Source: a virus | Strand: one strand, 5' to 3' | IMG/VR virus record: IMGVR_UViG_3300010885_003902 | Coordinates: 1-35,133 of that record | Length of the DNA stretch: 35,133 nt | Shown: positions 16,262 through 29,871 of the stretch, piece by piece | Numbering within the stretch: the stretch's first letter is position 1 | Layout of the letters: each line of letters begins with the position of its first letter | Made by a program: the position numbers and the translations under genes | Notes under the pieces: generated by a model | Seen by the model: only the letters and a program-made list of their open reading frames with translations | Databases searched by the model: none | Told to the model about the DNA's origin: nothing

Positions 16262-16338
16262 GGTTCCTTAGCTCAGTTGGATAGAGCAACAGCCTTCTAA
16301 GCTGTGGGTCGCTGGTTCAAGTCCAGCAGGGACCGCCA
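16262..16338 (+). tRNA. tRNA-Arg (TCT anticodon)
   Basis: 77 bases with encoded CCA. Acceptor GGTTCCT pairs with AGGGACC (one G-T). The anticodon stem ACAGC/GCTGT encloses the loop CTTCTAA with anticodon TCT, reading AGA. The T arm GCTGG-TTCAAGT-CCAGC is perfect. AGA is a frequent Arg codon in these phage genes and usually rare in bacteria, so it may aid late protein synthesis. Confidence 0.95.
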
Positions 16339-16347
16339 TATAAGTAC

Positions 16348-16519
<172 letters not shown>

Positions 16520-16546
16520 AAACGTGTTGTATCTATTTTTATTTTT

Positions 16547-16632
16547 GGACAGATGGGTGAGTGGTTAAAACCGACAGACTGTAAATCTGTTGCCTAATGG
16601 CTACGTTAGTTCGAATCTAACTCTGTCCACCA
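16547..16632 (+). tRNA. tRNA-Tyr (GTA anticodon)
   Basis: 86 bases with encoded CCA. Acceptor GGACAGA pairs perfectly with TCTGTCC. Anticodon stem ACAGA/TCTGT around CTGTAAA gives GTA. A bacterial-type long variable arm (TGCC...GGCTA) and a perfect T arm GTTAG-TTCGAAT-CTAAC are seen. Confidence 0.95.
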
Positions 16633-18597: not shown

Positions 18598-19927
18598 GGA
18601 AGCGACGGTAGAACACGTTGGTGTTCTGTACTAGTGAACCGTCGGAGGTTGTGGCACCAGCTGAGAAGGGATTTGCGACCATGCCGTAGCGGGTCTTAAA
18701 GCCAATCTTGGGCTGGAAGCTGTCCTGACCAACTGCACGAACCATCTGTAGTGGGACATATGGGCAGTAGAAGAGACCAGCGTCAAAGGCAGATGCGCCC
18801 TTGTAGCCGACTACTGCGAAGTTACCACCAGCATATGGGTCGACATATACGCGAGTGCGGCCGTTTAGAACGCCTGCGAATGTGTTGCCTGTGTCATCAA
18901 CCTGTAGATTGTTGCTGTTTAGAGCAGGGGTGTAGTCTAGAACACCAGCCATCTGTAGAGCAGACGCAACGTCTGAAGAACAGATGATGATGTTGCCCTT
19001 GCCGCGACGAGTTGCCTTGGCAATTGCGTTAGCTTCACGCTCAATCTGGAACATTAGACCCTTGAACTTCTCAACTGACCAACGGCCGTTTGAGTCAACG
19101 TCTAGATCGAATGTACCGGCAGTTGTTGTACCAGCAGCACCCTGTGTTGCAGTTAGAACTACTGAACGAACTACTTCACGATTGATTTCAGCAAGAATTT
19201 CTGCTGAAAGAATTGTTGATAGCTCTGTCTCAGCATCTAGACCGTGAATGGCCTTTAGATCCTGAGCTAGTTCGATTGAGTACTCAGCCTTTAGGGCACG
19301 TGACTTTGCAGTTACAGAAACACGCTCAATTGAGAATGCCATCTGTGCGAAGTCAGAGTTACCTGAAGCGCCTAGAGCTTCTGCCTGGGCAGTATTCATG
19401 CCGCCAGCAAAGTTATAGGTTGATGAGTTACCAGAAGCGACTACGGTATTTGAGAAGCCGTAGATACCGCCAACGTCACCAGCAGCTTGACCCAATGTGG
19501 TGTTGCCGGCAGTAAGAGTTGACTGACCTGTGTTGGCTTCGTAGTACATTGCTTCATAACCAGCAGCACCCTGAGCGGCTAGCTGTGAGTTATATGAAGG
19601 ACGTAGTGCGAAGATCAAACCAGTTGGGCCGGTCATTGGCTGAACGCCGCAGATATCATATGCAATGAGGTTAGGCATTGCACGGCGAACTAGTGAGATC
19701 AACACTGGATCGTAGTTGAGTGAACCACCGGTTAGTGAAGTAGGTGCAGCGCCCGAGGTCTCAATTAGAGACTGTGGGCTCATGGTGCTGCCTTCACGAA
19801 TTGCGGCTTCGGTGTTTTCTAGCATCTGAGCAAGAGTTGAACGCTTGTGTGCATCAGTGATCTTTGGTAGATCGGCATGCTCAAGCACTGGTGCCCACTT
19901 CTTTTGGATTTCTTCATTGATTAACAT
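18578..19927 (-). CDS. 23: major capsid protein gp23
   Basis: 449 residues (T4: 521). Diagnostic blocks: RRAMPNLIAYDICGVQPMTGPTG near residues 87-107, SRALKAEYSIELAQDLKAIHG, AEILAEINREVV, and GNFAVVGYKGASAFDAGLFYCPYV plus KIGFKTRYGMVANPF near the C-terminus, each close to T4 gp23. It forms the HK97-fold hexamers of the head shell. A likely gp21 cleavage site, SLIE before TSGA, lies at residues 53-56, where the leader peptide would be removed during maturation. It has its own late promoter 32 bases upstream and a terminator downstream, consistent with a very high late expression. Confidence 0.98.
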   Translation of the reverse strand: MLINEEIQKKWAPVLEHADLPKITDAHKRSTLAQMLENTEAAIREGSTMSPQSLIETSGAAPTSLTGGSLNYDPVLISLVRRAMPNLIAYDICGVQPMTGPTGLIFALRPSYNSQLAAQGAAGYEAMYYEANTGQSTLTAGNTTLGQAAGDVGGIYGFSNTVVASGNSSTYNFAGGMNTAQAEALGASGNSDFAQMAFSIERVSVTAKSRALKAEYSIELAQDLKAIHGLDAETELSTILSAEILAEINREVVRSVVLTATQGAAGTTTAGTFDLDVDSNGRWSVEKFKGLMFQIEREANAIAKATRRGKGNIIICSSDVASALQMAGVLDYTPALNSNNLQVDDTGNTFAGVLNGRTRVYVDPYAGGNFAVVGYKGASAFDAGLFYCPYVPLQMVRAVGQDSFQPKIGFKTRYGMVANPFSAGATTSDGSLVQNTNVFYRRFLINNIL

Positions 19928-21102: not shown

Positions 21103-21771
21103 TTATTTTCGTGAAAGCGAATTAAGATACTTCTCGAAAAGATGTAGCTGATTTTCGTTGATTTGAGACATACTCATCTTCTTTAGATTCTTCTTTGTGT
21201 TTTCTAGCATTTCAGCGGCGCGCCATGAACCAGCAGCAGCATCATATACCCACTCTACATTTTCCATTACACCGCGCACAAATGCTTTGTGTGCAGAAGG
21301 ATCAGCAACAATATCAGCAGCAGTAGCCAACATGAAGTCATCTTGAACTTCCATGATACCGTTCTTTTCTTTTAGCGTACCCATGCCGCGAGAAGAAACT
21401 CCTAAATTTGCGCCTTCATCAAGAAGATTCATTACAATATTACCCATAGGGGTATCTGTAATCTTAGCCTTACCAACAAAGTCTGAACCTTCTTGACGTA
21501 GCGACTTGATCATATGTGATACACGATCTAGATTGATCGTTGGACCTGCAGGATGACCTAGTTCGCCATAAGCACGATTTGTTTCAATTAAATCTTTTGT
21601 ATAACGTGCAACTTCTTTAGCAAGAATTTTTGACTCATAGATGCGACCATTCTTGTTGGGTCTATCACCCATTAAGAATACGCCTTCAATATGAAATTGC
21701 TTCTTGCCGTCTTCCCTAGCTTCTTTTACAAGGCTAAGTTTTTGATCTAGTACTTCGCAGATAAGTTTCAT
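21103..21771 (-). CDS. 21: prohead maturation protease gp21
   Basis: 222 residues (T4: 212). The T4/herpes-type serine protease pattern is seen: FLMGDRPNKNGRIYE near 32-46, GELGHPAGPTINLDRVSH with candidate catalytic His73 or His86, and LGVSSRGMGTL with a candidate Ser at 126-127. It is packaged in the prohead core, activates itself, and cuts capsid and core proteins after (I/L)-x-E. Such sites occur in gp23 and in the neighbouring core-like proteins here. It lies directly before gp22. Confidence 0.95.
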   Translation of the reverse strand: MKLICEVLDQKLSLVKEAREDGKKQFHIEGVFLMGDRPNKNGRIYESKILAKEVARYTKDLIETNRAYGELGHPAGPTINLDRVSHMIKSLRQEGSDFVGKAKITDTPMGNIVMNLLDEGANLGVSSRGMGTLKEKNGIMEVQDDFMLATAADIVADPSAHKAFVRGVMENVEWVYDAAAGSWRAAEMLENTKKNLKKMSMSQINENQLHLFEKYLNSLSRK

Positions 21772-21782
21772 CTTAGCTACCC

Positions 21783-22187
21783 TTAAGTTACGTTAACTGG
21801 AGCATAAGAGCCAGTATAGTGTGTGCCATCTGAGCCGTATGCGCCACCGCCAGCTTGTGCAGTCTGCTTGGCTAACTGAATAAGCAACGTACCATTAGTA
21901 TCGTTATTTGCACAAACAACTGTTGCAGTTGAGAACTGACTTAGTGATGTACCCTGACCATTGAAGTCAAAAAACCCAGGACCTGTGTTTCCCAAATACA
22001 ATACTGTGTTTGAACCACGTGAGATTGTCCAACTACCAGTCCAAAATACTTTTGTAATAGCAAGATTTGAAACAGTTTCAATGCTAGTATTAACTGATGC
22101 TGACGTTAGTGTGATTGTATTAGCAGCATTTAAGCTAAACCACACATGACCGCCTGGTCGATTTTGATATGCAACTGGATCTGCCAT
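21783..22187 (-). CDS. probable structural protein next to gp21 (134 aa)
   Basis: 134 residues, beta-rich and Ser/Thr/Asn-rich, without charged helices (TITLTSASVNTSIETVSNL, then SWTISRGSNTVLYLGN). The C-terminus GSDGTHYTGSYAPVNVT is of the flexible, Gly-rich kind found in virion surface proteins. I recognise no family. Sitting between the core-type ORF and gp21 among head genes, it could be a head decoration or a minor capsid protein. Confidence 0.7.
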   Translation of the reverse strand: MADPVAYQNRPGGHVWFSLNAANTITLTSASVNTSIETVSNLAITKVFWTGSWTISRGSNTVLYLGNTGPGFFDFNGQGTSLSQFSTATVVCANNDTNGTLLIQLAKQTAQAGGGAYGSDGTHYTGSYAPVNVT

Positions 22188-22188
22188 C

Positions 22189-23223
22189 TTACTTTACTCC
22201 ATGCTTTGCGCGAATTTTAGCTAGGATAGCACCAGCAACTTTTTCGCCTGATTCTTTTGAGCCATACTTCTTTGAAGCCTTAGCAGCAATCTTAGCAAAG
22301 TTCTTGCCAGGCTTGCCAATATCTTTACCAGCAGCAGCAGCCTTTGCTGAATAAGAAGCTTCACCTAATTCGACTTCTTCTTTGTATGCTGTTGGCTTCT
22401 GTGTGTTTGTTTGATCTGAACCGGGCTTGCCAGCTTCGCCAGCTTTGTTGCCTTCTGGATCATCTTCACCTTCGCCATCTTCGTCTGAATTTTCATCAAC
22501 AAAATCTTGAACTGACGAAACAAAATTCTTTGCTAGGTCAAGCTTCTCTAGAATCCAGCTGGGCATCTCTAGACCATCTGAGATGTTCTCATAGAGTTCA
22601 GCAGCAGCCATTGCAATTTCTTCTAAGTCTTCCTTAGCTTGACGAACGCCATCAGCCTCATTGCTGTCTTCGTTGCTGTCTTCATCGTTTTTGTTTTGAT
22701 CATTTGAATCTTTACCGCCAGCGCCAGCAGATGCACTATCAGCACCGCCTGGATTATCGCCACTAGCAGGAGCTGGTGCCATTTGATCACCAAGTTCTGC
22801 AATGTATGTGAAAGCAGTCATTTCATTTAGTGCGGGAATATCATTCCACTCTACATTTTCAGAATGAAAGTTACCGGCATCCATCTCTGCCTGATGCTTA
22901 TCGGCCATATGTGATGCAGCTTGCTTACGATCAGCAGTGGTGAACATCTTGTGCCAAGGTGTTTTTACATCGCCATGTTGTTTTGAATAGCTCTGTGCTG
23001 CACGATCAGCGTGATAGCCCCAAAGTTTCTTTGCTTTCTCATGATCATAGCTGCCCTTCTTGAACTTTTTTTCTAAGTTCTTGGCAACAGGCACATGACT
23101 GTTTCTGTATAGATGATGATCATTATCAGCATGAAGTGATAATTCGTGTGCGGCATCTGACATTTCTGCTGCTTCAGTTAGCTCTGTCTCTTCAGCACCT
23201 GACCATGCAGACCGAGAAGGCAA
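22189..23223 (-). CDS. head/core-type protein, 5' end unresolved
   Basis: This frame has no normal start. The listed 344 residues begin at TTG 23223, but the same frame is open upstream to 23517, and the first ATG is only at 23163. Residues are Asp/Asn/Ala-rich in the middle (low-complexity acidic linker around 145-195). The C-terminus ELGEASYSAKAAAAGKDIG followed by GKNFAKIAAKASKKYGSKE and AGAILAKIRAKHG is a basic tail found, as I recall, in other phage head proteins. LTE and LGE motifs are candidate gp21 cut sites. Position between gp20 and gp21 fits a prohead-core protein. No homologue with known function is recognised. Confidence 0.6.
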   Translation of the reverse strand: MPSRSAWSGAEETELTEAAEMSDAAHELSLHADNDHHLYRNSHVPVAKNLEKKFKKGSYDHEKAKKLWGYHADRAAQSYSKQHGDVKTPWHKMFTTADRKQAASHMADKHQAEMDAGNFHSENVEWNDIPALNEMTAFTYIAELGDQMAPAPASGDNPGGADSASAGAGGKDSNDQNKNDEDSNEDSNEADGVRQAKEDLEEIAMAAAELYENISDGLEMPSWILEKLDLAKNFVSSVQDFVDENSDEDGEGEDDPEGNKAGEAGKPGSDQTNTQKPTAYKEEVELGEASYSAKAAAAGKDIGKPGKNFAKIAAKASKKYGSKESGEKVAGAILAKIRAKHGVK

Positions 23224-23517
23224 TGCAGTCTTAATCTTACCAATAGGCTGACTCGTCTCAATGCCCTTCTTCTCTGTCTTTTCATGATGTGGCTTTGCTT
23301 TATCAAAAGCGGCTTCTACACCAATTTCGCCAGATTTAACAGCATGGAGTTTCTGTGCATTGTCACCAGATTCTGTGCCATTTAGATTTCCGTTTGGATT
23401 TCTATCTTTCTTTACAAACTTTTCAATAAGCTTGCCATGAGTTTCACTCTCGTATGCTGTGATAGCTTCATTGCCATGATAGTCAGCGCGGCGAGTAGTT
23501 AACTCTTTCTTTAAATT
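23224..23517 (-). other. open coding-like region upstream of, and in frame with, the core-type protein
   Basis: 98 codons without a stop, ATG or GTG, starting immediately after the TAA of the 66-residue gene and continuing in the same frame into the 22189-23223 ORF. The translation reads like real protein (DYHGNEAITAYESETHGKLI, then KFVKKDRNPNGN). Either the TAA is read through, initiation uses a rare codon, or a mutation or base error split one gene. Confidence 0.6.
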
Positions 23518-23718
23518 TTAACCATTAAAAATCTTTTCGCTTTCATCTTCATCATTGCTTGGTGTATTTGTTCTTAAAACAGGATGCTTATCAGAGAACT
23601 TCTTTAGTCCAGCCTTAGAGTCACGACCGACAACATAGTCCTGAGGATTAGTTTTGACTAATTTACGAGCCAATTCTTTTGGAGTTTTGGCAATTGCCAT
23701 CTTGTCTGTATTAGCCAT
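23518..23718 (-). CDS. small head-region protein (66 aa), possibly N-terminus of the next gene
   Basis: 66 residues from ATG 23718, with GAGG seven bases upstream; the start overlaps the preceding ORF by eight bases. The protein is basic in its first half (AKTPKELARKLVKTNPQDYV) and acidic at the end (NDEDESEKIFNG). Its TAA stop is followed in the same frame by 98 open codons and then the 344-residue ORF, so it may be the N-terminus of a 509-codon gene with an in-frame stop. Otherwise it is a small prohead-core protein like T4 gp67/gp68. Confidence 0.65.
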   Translation of the reverse strand: MANTDKMAIAKTPKELARKLVKTNPQDYVVGRDSKAGLKKFSDKHPVLRTNTPSNDEDESEKIFNG

Positions 23719-23881
23719 TTTGTTCCTCTGGATTGAAAAATCTCTGTGCTACTTCGATCTTTTTTGCAGCTAAAACGTCATGAATTCTTGCCATCAAGGC
23801 ATCATTTACAGTTGACTGTAGACCGTCGATGTTATCATCTAAACAGAGGTCTATAATATCTGTTGCTACATTGTTTTCCAT
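23711..23881 (-). CDS. small head-region protein (56 aa)
   Basis: ATG 23881 is preferred because GGAG lies six bases upstream and the late promoter at 23913-23906 would place the transcript start near 23900, downstream of the earlier ATG at 23899. The 56-residue product is acidic and helical (IIDLCLDDNIDGLQSTVNDA, then AKKIEVAQRFFNPEEQNG). It lies between gp20 and the next small gene, where T4 has the core proteins gp67 and gp68. Family not recognised. Confidence 0.65.
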   Translation of the reverse strand: MENNVATDIIDLCLDDNIDGLQSTVNDALMARIHDVLAAKKIEVAQRFFNPEEQNG

Positions 23882-23905
23882 GTTAATCTCCATTTTCATT
23901 CTATT

Positions 23906-23914: not shown

Positions 23915-25534
23915 TTAGCTTCCACCTAGATTTTGACTAGATAGTTGCGGCTCATTTGGAGCGAATCCTGAAGCTTGGCCTTGCTGTTGTCCTTGTTGCT
24001 GATCTTGACCCTGCTGATCTTGACCGGGCTGTTGGCCCATTGCTGCCATTTGTTGCTGCTGCATTTCCATGTTTTTTGCAGCTTCTTCTTGCATTTCTTG
24101 ATCCATGTCAATGATATCTTCATCGCTCAATTGAAGTACATTTCTCTTTACCCATTCTGCTGAGTAGTACTTACCAACATATGGATCAACCATTGAAAGA
24201 GTGTTCATTCTTTCACGCAGAATTTCTTCTTGCTTTAATTCAGAAAATACATTGTCTGCTTTGTAATTAAAATGAATGTTGCTCTTGAAAGTTTCCCAGT
24301 CTGATGCTGCAATAACACCAGTAAGAATTAACTGCTTTTCTAGTGCTTTCATAAACAAAGCAGAAAACTTTGTTCTTAAGCGATAAATGAATTTCTGGAA
24401 CTGAAGTTCATCACGTGTAATTTCTGATGAACGACCAAGACTAAAACCTGTGTCTGCTTGTAAACGTGAGACAGGCACGTTCAATGCGCGATATAGTTTC
24501 TTCTCAAAGTATTCAACGTCAGCTAGTTCGCCCAAGTTCTGACCAGATGGTAGTGTAGTAACATTAGTACCACCACCGCCTTCACGGCGTGGGAACCAAT
24601 AGTCTTCTAACATCGTCATGAACTTACGATCATCTCTAACGTCACCAGTAGTGGCATCATAGATCAATCTATTCTTATGGCGTGTCATTACATCTTTGAC
24701 ATACTGTTCGGCTTTCATCTTTGGTAGATTGCCAACGTCAATAGAGAAGATACGTCTTTCAGGCGCACGTGAGATACGATAGATTACTGTTGCGTCTTCT
24801 AGAACACGTAACTGATTAAGTGGCTTAATTGCTTTGTGTAGATAGCCTAGAACAATTTTATTGTCTCTGTCTACAACGCCAGATGGTACATGAATGATTG
24901 AGTCTTTAGCAATCTGTAGACCTTGATTGTCCATACCTGTAGCAGAAGCGCCCTTAAAGCCTCTTTCGCTATAGATGTAAAATTCATTATCAGTAACGTT
25001 AGTGTATACCATGTCTTTCTTGACACGCTTAACTGCACGTACTTTGCGAATCTTTCTAGGGTCAATGTAACGTAGTTCTTTGATGCCAGACTTAGCATCA
25101 TTCACATCAATCATGATATGATAGTAGATACGACCATCAACATACCAACGTCTAAAAATATCGTAACCAGAGTTGTTGAAGTCTAACAACTGATCAATCT
25201 TATTCCATTCTTCTTGAATTCTTAATTTGATATTGTCTGTAACATCAAGATCGTCAAGATCAATCTCAACGATCTTTTCTTTGCCTTCTTTACAGATAGT
25301 TTCATCTACAATATCGCTAATTGCAGCGTCACACTCTGGCTGAATAGACATTTCACGATACTTGGCAACGATCTCGGCTTCTGTTTTAGCAGAGCCTTCT
25401 AAGTCTAGATACGTACCAAAAGTACCGCCCGCTGAAACAACCAAAGCTCCGTCATCTGTCTCACGCGGAGCAAATGACGGAATACTTAGGTCTTCTTCGG
25501 TTTCTTTCCGAATTTCAAAGCCAAAAAGTTTCAT
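23915..25534 (-). CDS. 20: portal vertex protein gp20
   Basis: 539 residues (T4: 524). Typical gp20 blocks are present: SDIVDETICKEGKE, LDFNNSGYDIFRRWYVDGRIYYH near residues 95-118, LRYIDPRKIRKVR, RAPERRIFSIDVGNLPKMKAEQYV, RREGGGGTNVTTLPSGQNLGELADVEYF and KLYRALNVPVSRL. The C-terminal 50 residues form a Gln-rich tail with repeated GQ pairs. gp20 forms the 12-subunit ring at the packaging vertex, starts prohead assembly and later joins the neck. A TAGGAC site precedes ATG 25534. Confidence 0.97.
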   Translation of the reverse strand: MKLFGFEIRKETEEDLSIPSFAPRETDDGALVVSAGGTFGTYLDLEGSAKTEAEIVAKYREMSIQPECDAAISDIVDETICKEGKEKIVEIDLDDLDVTDNIKLRIQEEWNKIDQLLDFNNSGYDIFRRWYVDGRIYYHIMIDVNDAKSGIKELRYIDPRKIRKVRAVKRVKKDMVYTNVTDNEFYIYSERGFKGASATGMDNQGLQIAKDSIIHVPSGVVDRDNKIVLGYLHKAIKPLNQLRVLEDATVIYRISRAPERRIFSIDVGNLPKMKAEQYVKDVMTRHKNRLIYDATTGDVRDDRKFMTMLEDYWFPRREGGGGTNVTTLPSGQNLGELADVEYFEKKLYRALNVPVSRLQADTGFSLGRSSEITRDELQFQKFIYRLRTKFSALFMKALEKQLILTGVIAASDWETFKSNIHFNYKADNVFSELKQEEILRERMNTLSMVDPYVGKYYSAEWVKRNVLQLSDEDIIDMDQEMQEEAAKNMEMQQQQMAAMGQQPGQDQQGQDQQQGQQQGQASGFAPNEPQLSSQNLGGS

Positions 25535-25555: not shown

Positions 25556-26107
25556 TTAAGATCCACCAGCGCGACCAGTGACGCCGCCTGTAACTTCCCA
25601 ATAGTCATATAAGAATGTAACTCTAAACTCTTCGATACGATCTGTTGCATCCCAGTCTAGGTCAATTGCTTGAATATCTGCGGGATAGATCCCGTAGAAT
25701 GTGTACTCACGAATAGGAACGCCTGTCTTTGAGAACTGAGTTACCGTTGCGTTTGACTTGTATAGCAGAGGTGAAGCAGAACCGAATGAACGTAAGTTGC
25801 CTTCTAGTGAGTTGATCTTGTTTGACCACTCTTCCATTGCATTACGGATTAGGAAGTCTTCATCGTTGATGACTGTTACGCCCCAATCTGCGAATGTACG
25901 ATCACCAGCTAGATTGATCTTACGACCGAAGTAGCCGATTGTGATGTTGCCTAGCTTTGACTCTGGAAGCTGTGCAGTGCGTACCATGAATGGCACTTTG
26001 ATGTTACCAGTTCCATTTGCAGGATTGTTAAATTGCACCTGGAATAGCGACTGTCTTGCACCGCCACCTGTTAGTTGTGACTTAATTTCGTTGATATTGA
26101 AAGCCAT
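25556..26107 (-). CDS. 19: tail tube protein gp19
   Basis: 183 residues (T4: 163). The block GRKINLAGDRTFADWGVTVINDEDF near residues 65-89 is almost the same as T4 gp19's NRKINVAGDRTFDDWTVTVMNDE, and the end IQAIDLDWDATDRIEEFRVTFLYDYWE also matches. It forms the inner tube of the contractile tail as stacked hexamers. A strong AAGGAG site lies upstream of ATG 26107, and a late promoter variant precedes it. Confidence 0.97.
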   Translation of the reverse strand: MAFNINEIKSQLTGGGARQSLFQVQFNNPANGTGNIKVPFMVRTAQLPESKLGNITIGYFGRKINLAGDRTFADWGVTVINDEDFLIRNAMEEWSNKINSLEGNLRSFGSASPLLYKSNATVTQFSKTGVPIREYTFYGIYPADIQAIDLDWDATDRIEEFRVTFLYDYWEVTGGVTGRAGGS

Positions 26108-26136: not shown

Positions 26137-28161
26137 TTAGAATTTGCCTACGATTTCGGAGAATTCAACACCAGTTCTAACAGCAACAAAGTTTAGCTGG
26201 ATGAAGTTGATTGAACGTGCAGGCTTAATGTAGATATCGCCTACAAAACGGTTGCCGTCAATTACTTCTCCTGTGTTGTTTGTCTCATCGCACACTACCT
26301 TGAAGTCATAGATGCCACGACGGCCCTGGATGTCCTTCAAGAATGGTGTAACGAGTGATACGAACTGTGACCGAGTGAAAGCATCGTTGAATTCAAATAG
26401 TGTGAATTTAGAAGCAGTCGCAATGGCCTTTTCTAGGACAATGAAGAGTCTACGCACGTTGATACGATCAAAGGCAGAAGGTTTGGCGAGAAGAGTCTTG
26501 TCGCCGTATAGAATTGTGCCTTGACCAGGGAATGTAACAACTGGGTTGACGCCAGCAGGATAGAGAACGTCACGATCAGCTTGCTTCGGATTGTATGCAA
26601 GCTTAATGATGTTCTTGATCTGACCGCGATTAAAGCCAGCAGGAGACCACCATGGATCTCTCTGAGTGTCTGTAACAACGCAAAGACCGGCAACGTCACC
26701 GTTTAGAGGCACCCAACGATAGATATCATTGTACTTGTCATACTGATACTTATAGCCAGAGTCTAAGACAGCATATGAAGTGCTTCTTAGATTATTGCGG
26801 AAAGTAGTAACTGCACTTAGTTCGCTGCCGACATTGTTAACAACGTCTGTGTTTTGAGGAGATACGAATACAACGCAGTCCTTTCTAACGTTAGCAACAT
26901 TGTCAATGAGGTAGTTGGCTAGCTGTGTGCCGTTTGTACCAGCAGTCTTACCAGCCATGACTAGAGCAACATCAACATTTTCTGTTGAAGCGAATAGATC
27001 ATAAGCATTTGTAATATTGCCAATATATGTGCCGACTGTTGCCTCATCAAAGCCGTCATTACCGCCTTGGAACGATAGTGATAGCGGCGTTGCAGTTGCA
27101 GTTGTAGCAATGTTAATTGCAGTGTTGACGCTGTAGCCGCTACGGTGGTTTGTCCACCAGAGATACTGTGAACTCTGATTTAGAACGTTGACGTAGTAGT
27201 TTGTAGAGCCGTCTTGTGTCTTGGCATCTGTAGCACGTGATAAGCCCTGATAGACTTCTAGAATCGTGCCAGGAACGCCTGTGAACTTACCATCTTGGTC
27301 AGAAACAACAGCGTGAACTTCATCTACTGCGGCAGTGTTGCCGAAGCTGGTGTTGTAGTCTGATGAGCCAGGAGCTTTATCGACTGACTGGAAGTATTCC
27401 CAGTTACGAGTAATTGTACCAGACATTGATACGCTGGATGATAGCGTATAAGTGCTTGACAAGTTAACTGTAAAGGTATTGCCTGTTGGTGTTGATGCGG
27501 GCTTTGCAGCAACTTGAACATACTGATAGCCAACAATTGTGTTGCCAACATATAGATAGTCGCCAACAGTTAGTGCTTGATAAGCAGCGTTTGATCTTAC
27601 GTAGCTGCCAGAGTCATCAAAGGTGATGACCATTGAGTTGCCAGAGAATGTTGTAGTGGCAACGTTAGCTAGTGAAGACTGATACTGTGTAGCGTTATCG
27701 CAAACAGATAGCTTTAGTGTGTTGCCTAGATCACCAGGATATTTTGCAACATATAGGATCTGAGTGTTTGAGGCAAAGTTATTGGCAGTCAACTTTTGAT
27801 CATAATCGTCTGCGTTCTTAACGTTAAGAATAGCATTGAATGTGTAGCTGGCGGTATTTGCAACAGCGCTCCATGTGCCAATTGTATTAGCAGAACTTGT
27901 TGTATTTGCTGCACGGCTAACATATAGCGCATTGCCATATGAAAGAAAGTTTGCTGCTGTGAAAAAAGTCTCAGCATTTAGATTTGTTGGCTTGCCGAAA
28001 CGATTTACGAGCGAAGCTTCTGAATCGACTAGGACCAGCTTACCTACTGGACCCCAACGAAATAAACCGCCAATACCGCCAGTGGTTGTAGAAACCGCTG
28101 GAACGATAGTTGTTAGGTCAATTTCGCTTACATTTACGCCTGGGCTTACTTGGAATGACAT
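26137..28161 (-). CDS. 18: tail sheath protein gp18
   Basis: 674 residues (T4: 659). N-terminus FQVSPGVNVSEIDLTTIVPA, followed by GGIGGLFRWGPVGKLVLVDSEASLVNRFGKP, is the sheath signature. The C-terminal domain carries RDPWWSPAGFNRGQIKNIIKLAYNPKQADRDVLYPAGVNPVV, the RINVRRLFIVLEKAI motif and FVGDIYIKPARSINFIQLNFVAVRTG (regions near 500-665). It surrounds the tube and contracts on infection. GGGAGA precedes ATG 28161, with a late promoter 55 bases upstream. Confidence 0.98.
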   Translation of the reverse strand: MSFQVSPGVNVSEIDLTTIVPAVSTTTGGIGGLFRWGPVGKLVLVDSEASLVNRFGKPTNLNAETFFTAANFLSYGNALYVSRAANTTSSANTIGTWSAVANTASYTFNAILNVKNADDYDQKLTANNFASNTQILYVAKYPGDLGNTLKLSVCDNATQYQSSLANVATTTFSGNSMVITFDDSGSYVRSNAAYQALTVGDYLYVGNTIVGYQYVQVAAKPASTPTGNTFTVNLSSTYTLSSSVSMSGTITRNWEYFQSVDKAPGSSDYNTSFGNTAAVDEVHAVVSDQDGKFTGVPGTILEVYQGLSRATDAKTQDGSTNYYVNVLNQSSQYLWWTNHRSGYSVNTAINIATTATATPLSLSFQGGNDGFDEATVGTYIGNITNAYDLFASTENVDVALVMAGKTAGTNGTQLANYLIDNVANVRKDCVVFVSPQNTDVVNNVGSELSAVTTFRNNLRSTSYAVLDSGYKYQYDKYNDIYRWVPLNGDVAGLCVVTDTQRDPWWSPAGFNRGQIKNIIKLAYNPKQADRDVLYPAGVNPVVTFPGQGTILYGDKTLLAKPSAFDRINVRRLFIVLEKAIATASKFTLFEFNDAFTRSQFVSLVTPFLKDIQGRRGIYDFKVVCDETNNTGEVIDGNRFVGDIYIKPARSINFIQLNFVAVRTGVEFSEIVGKF

Positions 28162-28227: not shown

Positions 28228-29871
28228 TCAAATAATAAACTTTTCATACGGATCGGCCAACGGCACTCCAAGAAACCTGTTAAACTCATCGTCTTCTGAA
28301 GAAGTGTCTAGTCCTTCGTCTATAAAGCCAAAGGGTAACATTTCCTCTTCTAATTTGCGTTGATTGCTTTCTAAAAGTTCTAGGCGGGCATCGTTATTAC
28401 TCAACTCCTTAAAGTAGTCTTGGTTTACGAGCCAAGAGAACAAAACGCAACACATTACTAGGTCGTCGTGTTCTCCCTCTTCTGCCTGATACTTGCCGTT
28501 TATTTCAATAAATCTGTACATTTCATAAAGCAGGTCATAATCATTAATTATGATTTTATCGCTCTCTACTAAGCTTTTAAAGTTAGCGCAGCCGATACGT
28601 TTTACTTGTGTAGTAGTGCGTACACCCAGCGATAGCTTACCGCCACCAGAATCACCGAGCTTTTGACCTGATTTGCCGCCAGACCTAGTTAGCAAGACGT
28701 TTTCATATTCCAAGTCGTTCTGTAGAATATCTGCGACTTGCTGACCAATGTCATTTGTTTCGACAAGAATATACGCCGTGTTGTATGGTCGTGAAGCATT
28801 GTAAATAACATTTGGATAAACTAAAGCGGCAATATTGTTATCTTTGTATCTAGCAACAACTTTATATGGTATTTTAGTAATATCGTAAACTATAAACGCA
28901 GAGTAGTCTATGCCCGCGCCTCTAGACGTATCTACTACAGTCAGATACACGTGTTTCTTTTTTGGCAATTCATAGATGATTAAATTACCATGACGCTCTA
29001 GCGGTAACGCATGTGTCAACATAGAAAGTTTTGATGCGTCAATTAGAGTATTTGAAGAGCCTAGGAACTCGCACTCATACTCTTGCTTGAACTGTCTCTC
29101 ACTAGTATTGTCAATAGTCTGCTTCTTCCAGGCTTCCGTTCTGCCGGGAATCTGCGACCAGTGTACAGAGACTCTAGAGTATGAGTTTTTACCTGTCTCG
29201 CTTTCTGACCAAATCTTGTAGAACAAGTTCATGCCGTTTGGCGTAGATGTAATTAGAACCTTAGTGGATTGACCAGACGAAATTGTAGGATAAACTGATG
29301 CAAAGAATTCTTCCTGTACGTTACTGGGTACGAAAGCAAACTCGTCTAGGTAAACTAAGTTCTGTGAAGTACCGCGAATTGCAGAGGATGAGGTAGAACT
29401 TGCTAGAATTTTGCTACCATTCTCTAGCTCAATGTTGCCTTTGTTCCACTCAATAATCCCTTGCTGGAGCCACTTTGGCAGATGTTCGTATGCTAACTGT
29501 ATGCGAGACAGGATCTCACGGGCCTGACGCTCCTTGTTCGCTAGGATAGCAATGGAGAAGTTATCTTTGAACAGCACATACCACAACAGAAGAGCAGCGA
29601 TTGTAGTAGTCTTACCTACCTGACGAGGCATCTTTGCAATGACGAACCTATCGTCAATACATTTTTTAATCATTTCAACTTGAAAAGGCCAAGGTTCGAA
29701 CGGAACTAGACCCTTATCGACGTTGACGATCTTGACATATTTTTTTATGAAATACAAAGGTTCTTTGGAACACTTGACGTATTCCTTTACCATATCTTCG
29801 TTCCAGCCGATAGAGACGGCCGAACGTTTTAAGTTCTTATTACCAAGATACGTTGAGGACTTATCAGCCAT
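28228..29871 (-). CDS. 17: terminase large subunit gp17
   Basis: 547 residues (T4: 610). ATPase domain: Walker A-type MPRQVGKTTT at 81-90 (T4: SRQLGKTT) and Walker B NLVYLDEFAF, with the STPNG coupling motif. Nuclease domain: TVVDTSRGAGIDYSAF, ILVETNDIGQQVADIL and HDDLVMC supply the three metal-binding acidic residues. It pumps DNA through the portal and cuts concatemers. The start overlaps the gp16 stop (TAATG), so the two subunits are probably coupled. Confidence 0.98.
   Translation of the reverse strand: MADKSSTYLGNKNLKRSAVSIGWNEDMVKEYVKCSKEPLYFIKKYVKIVNVDKGLVPFEPWPFQVEMIKKCIDDRFVIAKMPRQVGKTTTIAALLLWYVLFKDNFSIAILANKERQAREILSRIQLAYEHLPKWLQQGIIEWNKGNIELENGSKILASSTSSSAIRGTSQNLVYLDEFAFVPSNVQEEFFASVYPTISSGQSTKVLITSTPNGMNLFYKIWSESETGKNSYSRVSVHWSQIPGRTEAWKKQTIDNTSERQFKQEYECEFLGSSNTLIDASKLSMLTHALPLERHGNLIIYELPKKKHVYLTVVDTSRGAGIDYSAFIVYDITKIPYKVVARYKDNNIAALVYPNVIYNASRPYNTAYILVETNDIGQQVADILQNDLEYENVLLTRSGGKSGQKLGDSGGGKLSLGVRTTTQVKRIGCANFKSLVESDKIIINDYDLLYEMYRFIEINGKYQAEEGEHDDLVMCCVLFSWLVNQDYFKELSNNDARLELLESNQRKLEEEMLPFGFIDEGLDTSSEDDEFNRFLGVPLADPYEKFII

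Follow-up and report, generated by a model that had tools for sequence, protein, structure and literature searches.

An in-frame ochre codon private to one contig in a prohead-core-position gene of a T4-like phage

An ochre codon interrupts a long minus-strand frame in the head-gene region of the window, the whole 35,133-nucleotide stretch analysed, which is a 35-kb virus record of a T4-like phage. Sequence comparison makes it almost certain that this TAA is one private base difference in a gene that would otherwise encode a continuous 509-residue product, and that it reflects either a young nonsense allele or an error in the base or the assembly. Since the stop is present in only one of six near-identical copies of the gene, we attribute it to mutation or to a sequencing or assembly error, and not to a new route to an extended capsid protein.

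The interrupted frame and its intact copies

Re-translation of the window reproduced exactly the frame, the ochre stop, the TTG at 23223 and the ATG at 23163 that had been reported in a preliminary description. The minus-strand frame (22189..23718) comprises 510 codons including the final stop. It opens with ATG at 23718 and runs for 66 codons (the 66-residue ORF, 23518..23718) to the TAA at codon 67 (23520-23518), after which 442 sense codons (22189..23517) lead to the terminal stop at 22191-22189. Only two in-frame stops, at 23520 and 22191, occur in the entire frame. The impression that the translation beyond the internal stop looks like genuine protein was borne out, as relatives encode the same stretch as protein and it is therefore true coding sequence.

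When the post-stop protein served as query against IMG/VR, it identified five contigs from the same population (G001-G005; IMG datasets 3300009164, 3300009184, 3300032288, 3300009158 and 3300009183), which are 99.2-99.98% identical to the window and possibly derive from related samples, so that they are perhaps not fully independent. The preliminary description had proposed looking for a sense codon at this site in homologues, and codon 67 proved to be TCA, encoding serine, in all five sister contigs, with TAA in the window alone. A pattern scan permitting either A or C at this base, which may omit the window's own record, matched the five sister contigs only. Within the part of the gene that each covers (1117 bp in G005), position 23519 is the sole difference from the window in four of the five sisters (G001, G002, G004 and G005). 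The most divergent sister, G003 (99.2%), has three further substitutions in the gene and, shortly before the codon-67 site, an in-frame deletion of 9 bases, and its frame is still open throughout. The substitution is confined to one record, near-identical genomes have intact copies and the frame shows no additional decay; this is the pattern of a single metagenome contig with a base error or a nonsense allele, and we found no departure from it. Elsewhere in the window, a patch of the major head protein gene (18755-18929) carries five synonymous differences from the sister contigs within 175 bp, which suggests that this patch is recombined or mosaic.

More distant homologues were likewise unbroken. 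In five loci (L007, L008, L009, L012 and L013) the protein is encoded as a single frame from an upstream ATG, the L009 frame being interrupted by the contig end. A tblastn search with residues 41-110 alone gave matches that span the stop in L007-L009, L012, L040, L053 and L057. The TAA falls within a conserved N-terminal stretch, from KHP.. to ..F.G...K..T..ADY.....YE, and the 66-residue product is therefore no natural unit. Neither blastn nor tblastn with the gene gave a match among the annotated phages (50,697 records), which is why the answer came from IMG/VR contigs. With TCA in the sisters and unbroken homologues, two of the four explanations originally offered, recent nonsense mutation and base error, stand, and the other two, stop readthrough and initiation at a rare codon, do not.

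Readthrough, recoding and separate initiation

Programmed readthrough of coat protein genes is exemplified by A1 of phage Q-beta; in such cases the stop is conserved and termination there yields a complete product. The window gene is similar in that it is virion-related and its frame stays open beyond a stop, but this stop is confined to one record and lies inside a motif. A literature search on capsid readthrough and on premature stops in viral assemblies returned nothing specific to this case. Were readthrough programmed here, the 66-residue protein would be the main product, and the small fraction of ribosomes that read the TAA would produce a minor, extended head protein. The post-stop frame is intact and coding, as such a mechanism would need, but it would be equally intact after an error or a nonsense change of very recent date. 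The reading fails because the TAA is absent from all five sisters and from all homologues compared, and similarity crossing the stop means that the short product is neither a complete protein nor a complete domain. We therefore give programmed readthrough almost no credence.

Suppression or a changed genetic code was considered as a further candidate and rejected. The four tRNAs found, with Arg, Leu, Ser and Tyr anticodons, include none that reads a stop, and neither the window nor a 58-kb sister contig yielded a stop-reading tRNA, both sequences representing an incomplete genome. TAA is also the ordinary terminator of 29 of the 40 other ORFs in the window, which argues against code reassignment as well as against readthrough. 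The tRNA cluster itself lies on the plus strand (16262-16632), between the head genes and other genes.

The downstream protein could instead be a gene in its own right, initiated from TTG 23223, ATG 23163 or a rare codon. Beyond the internal TAA, the first in-frame TTG, ATG and GTG are at 23223, 23163 and 23094, respectively, and the frame contains no CTG at all downstream of the stop; thus no ATG, GTG or CTG occurs in frame between the TAA and 23223. Inspection by eye revealed no convincing ribosome-binding site ahead of TTG 23223 or ATG 23163. ATG 23163 is the first codon of an internal mobile module, which could be taken to favour a separate start, but in the sisters and homologues this module sits within one longer frame. 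Rare-codon initiation fails because the intact homologues start once, upstream, and a convincing post-stop start is lacking. The 344-residue ORF from TTG 23223 has a mechanical start that is not likely to be a gene start.

Some encouragement for two genes came from Stenotrophomonas phage DLP_6, in which the same portal-protease slot is present and is occupied by two distinct ORFs (85 and 261 aa). We considered DLP_6 as a natural two-gene version of the window gene and rejected it; the arrangement is syntenic, but both ORFs, including the second, have their own ATG, and BLASTP detected no similarity between either of them and the window protein. Taken with the evidence above, a separate downstream gene appears very unlikely. 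The 85-aa ORF of DLP_6 (L106:5855-6112), which occupies the prohead-core slot, is annotated as a holin. It has a similar F..H...F.GG..KD.T pattern (seen by eye; not significant by BLASTP), and this pattern together with its position makes the holin label look doubtful.

Origin of the private stop

The single private base difference that we favour would have arisen as one C-to-A change, TCA to TAA, at codon 67 of the window record. Comparison with the longest sister, G004, indicated how readily such a change could occur. The two differ by 26 substitutions over 35 kb, comprising 16 synonymous, 8 nonsynonymous and 1 nonsense change, together 25 coding changes, while the remaining one falls outside the listed genes. 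If single bases in the genes of the window are changed at random, a stop results in 4.4% of cases, so about one nonsense change would be expected among the 25 if these were unfiltered by selection. The other differences lean synonymous (16 versus 8), so that most of them are real strain variation and not error.

G003 (L097) provided a yardstick, as it carries two private nonsense codons of its own, at positions equivalent to 26777 and 33088 of the window. The first lies at codon 462 of the tail sheath gene and is a sense codon in the window, G004 and G005; the second is about 136 bases from the G003 contig end. Stops confined to a single contig are thus present in these assemblies, and one falls in a gene that the phage would be expected to need. 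A functional role for a private stop in a sheath gene is difficult to envisage, and its presence suggests that errors or defective genomes are a source of such differences.

Error or recent mutation as the cause of the private stop is what we infer from the serine codon of the sisters and the unbroken homologues. A true ochre allele circulating in a dispensable gene is a fair contender as the origin of this private change, although we rate it at somewhat below an even chance. The differences between the window and its sisters include real strain variation, and T4 gp68, a core protein degraded by gp21, is reported to be non-essential for assembly (PMC9958956). A real allele would yield a 66-residue fragment, and loss of the protein would perhaps be survivable, as it is for T4 without gp68. 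However, the TAA was seen in no other contig, and, judging from the sheath stop of G003, errors also seem to produce changes of this kind. A stronger version, in which the ochre allele is real and circulates, shortens the prohead-core protein to 66 residues and is put to use by the phage through either the truncation or low-level readthrough, is highly improbable.

The prohead-core slot and its modular proteins

The gene lies in a minus-strand series of virion genes. Upstream of it are the terminase (28228-29871), tail sheath (26137-28161), tail tube (25556-26107) and gp20-type portal protein (23915..25534) genes and a 62-aa ORF (23711..23899) assigned to phrog_683, whose match to DUF7216 was weak and below the cut-off. 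Downstream are a 134-aa ORF (21783..22187), similar to a 105-aa ORF at the same place in DLP_6, and the gp21-type head maturation protease (21103..21771), beyond which the order continues with scaffold and major head protein. From T4 gene order, we take the slot of the gene to be that of the T4 prohead-core genes 67 and 68.

Its position between the portal and the gp21-type protease is that of a prohead-core protein of the gp68 type. Genes in the same slot of Synechococcus phage S-CREM1 are annotated 'prehead core component', and an N-terminal F..KH motif is common to the relatives that occupy this slot. Since the window protein matched no Pfam or PHROG family, core-protein families included, we base the gp68 assignment on its position and on the N-terminal motif that it shares with these relatives, from which we infer that the gene probably functions like gp68. 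A structure prediction from an eight-sequence alignment was of low confidence (mean pLDDT 37). The window protein differs from its marine relatives of about 140 aa in being much longer and in containing the internal mobile module.

This module (MSDAAHELSLHADND..., 22876..23163, minus strand) is also found inside other proteins in other phage contigs. It comprises about 95 residues (MSDAAHELSLHADND...LWGYHADRAAQSY...), and its DNA is 97% identical to that of one relative whose flanks are far more diverged, which, with its presence in other proteins, suggests recent recombination and module exchange. The module loci are 22748-23164 in the window, L007:1728-2144, L010:4016-4300, where it lies in a scaffold-like protein, and L103:1160-3232, where it lies in a 690-aa protein.

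Variability extends to the slot as a whole. Across 46 loci, the protein encoded after the portal ranges from about 135 to 957 aa in length (for example L024:6806-9679 and L082:6846-9422). The motif [EDQ][LIV][DNGTS]E followed by a non-acidic residue was observed 40 times in these proteins, against 11.9 expected from composition, with many of the matches derived from a few long proteins, and it often directly precedes modules. As T4-type proteases cut after glutamate, the motif statistics raise the possibility that the head protease cuts a modular polyprotein at these sites.

The five intact copies settle the recoding question for the codon-67 stop, and they carry the caution that an in-frame stop seen in a single metagenome contig calls for comparison with sister contigs before any recoding is put forward. 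The stop is of less interest than the gene itself, whose long, modular product belongs to the prohead-core slot.
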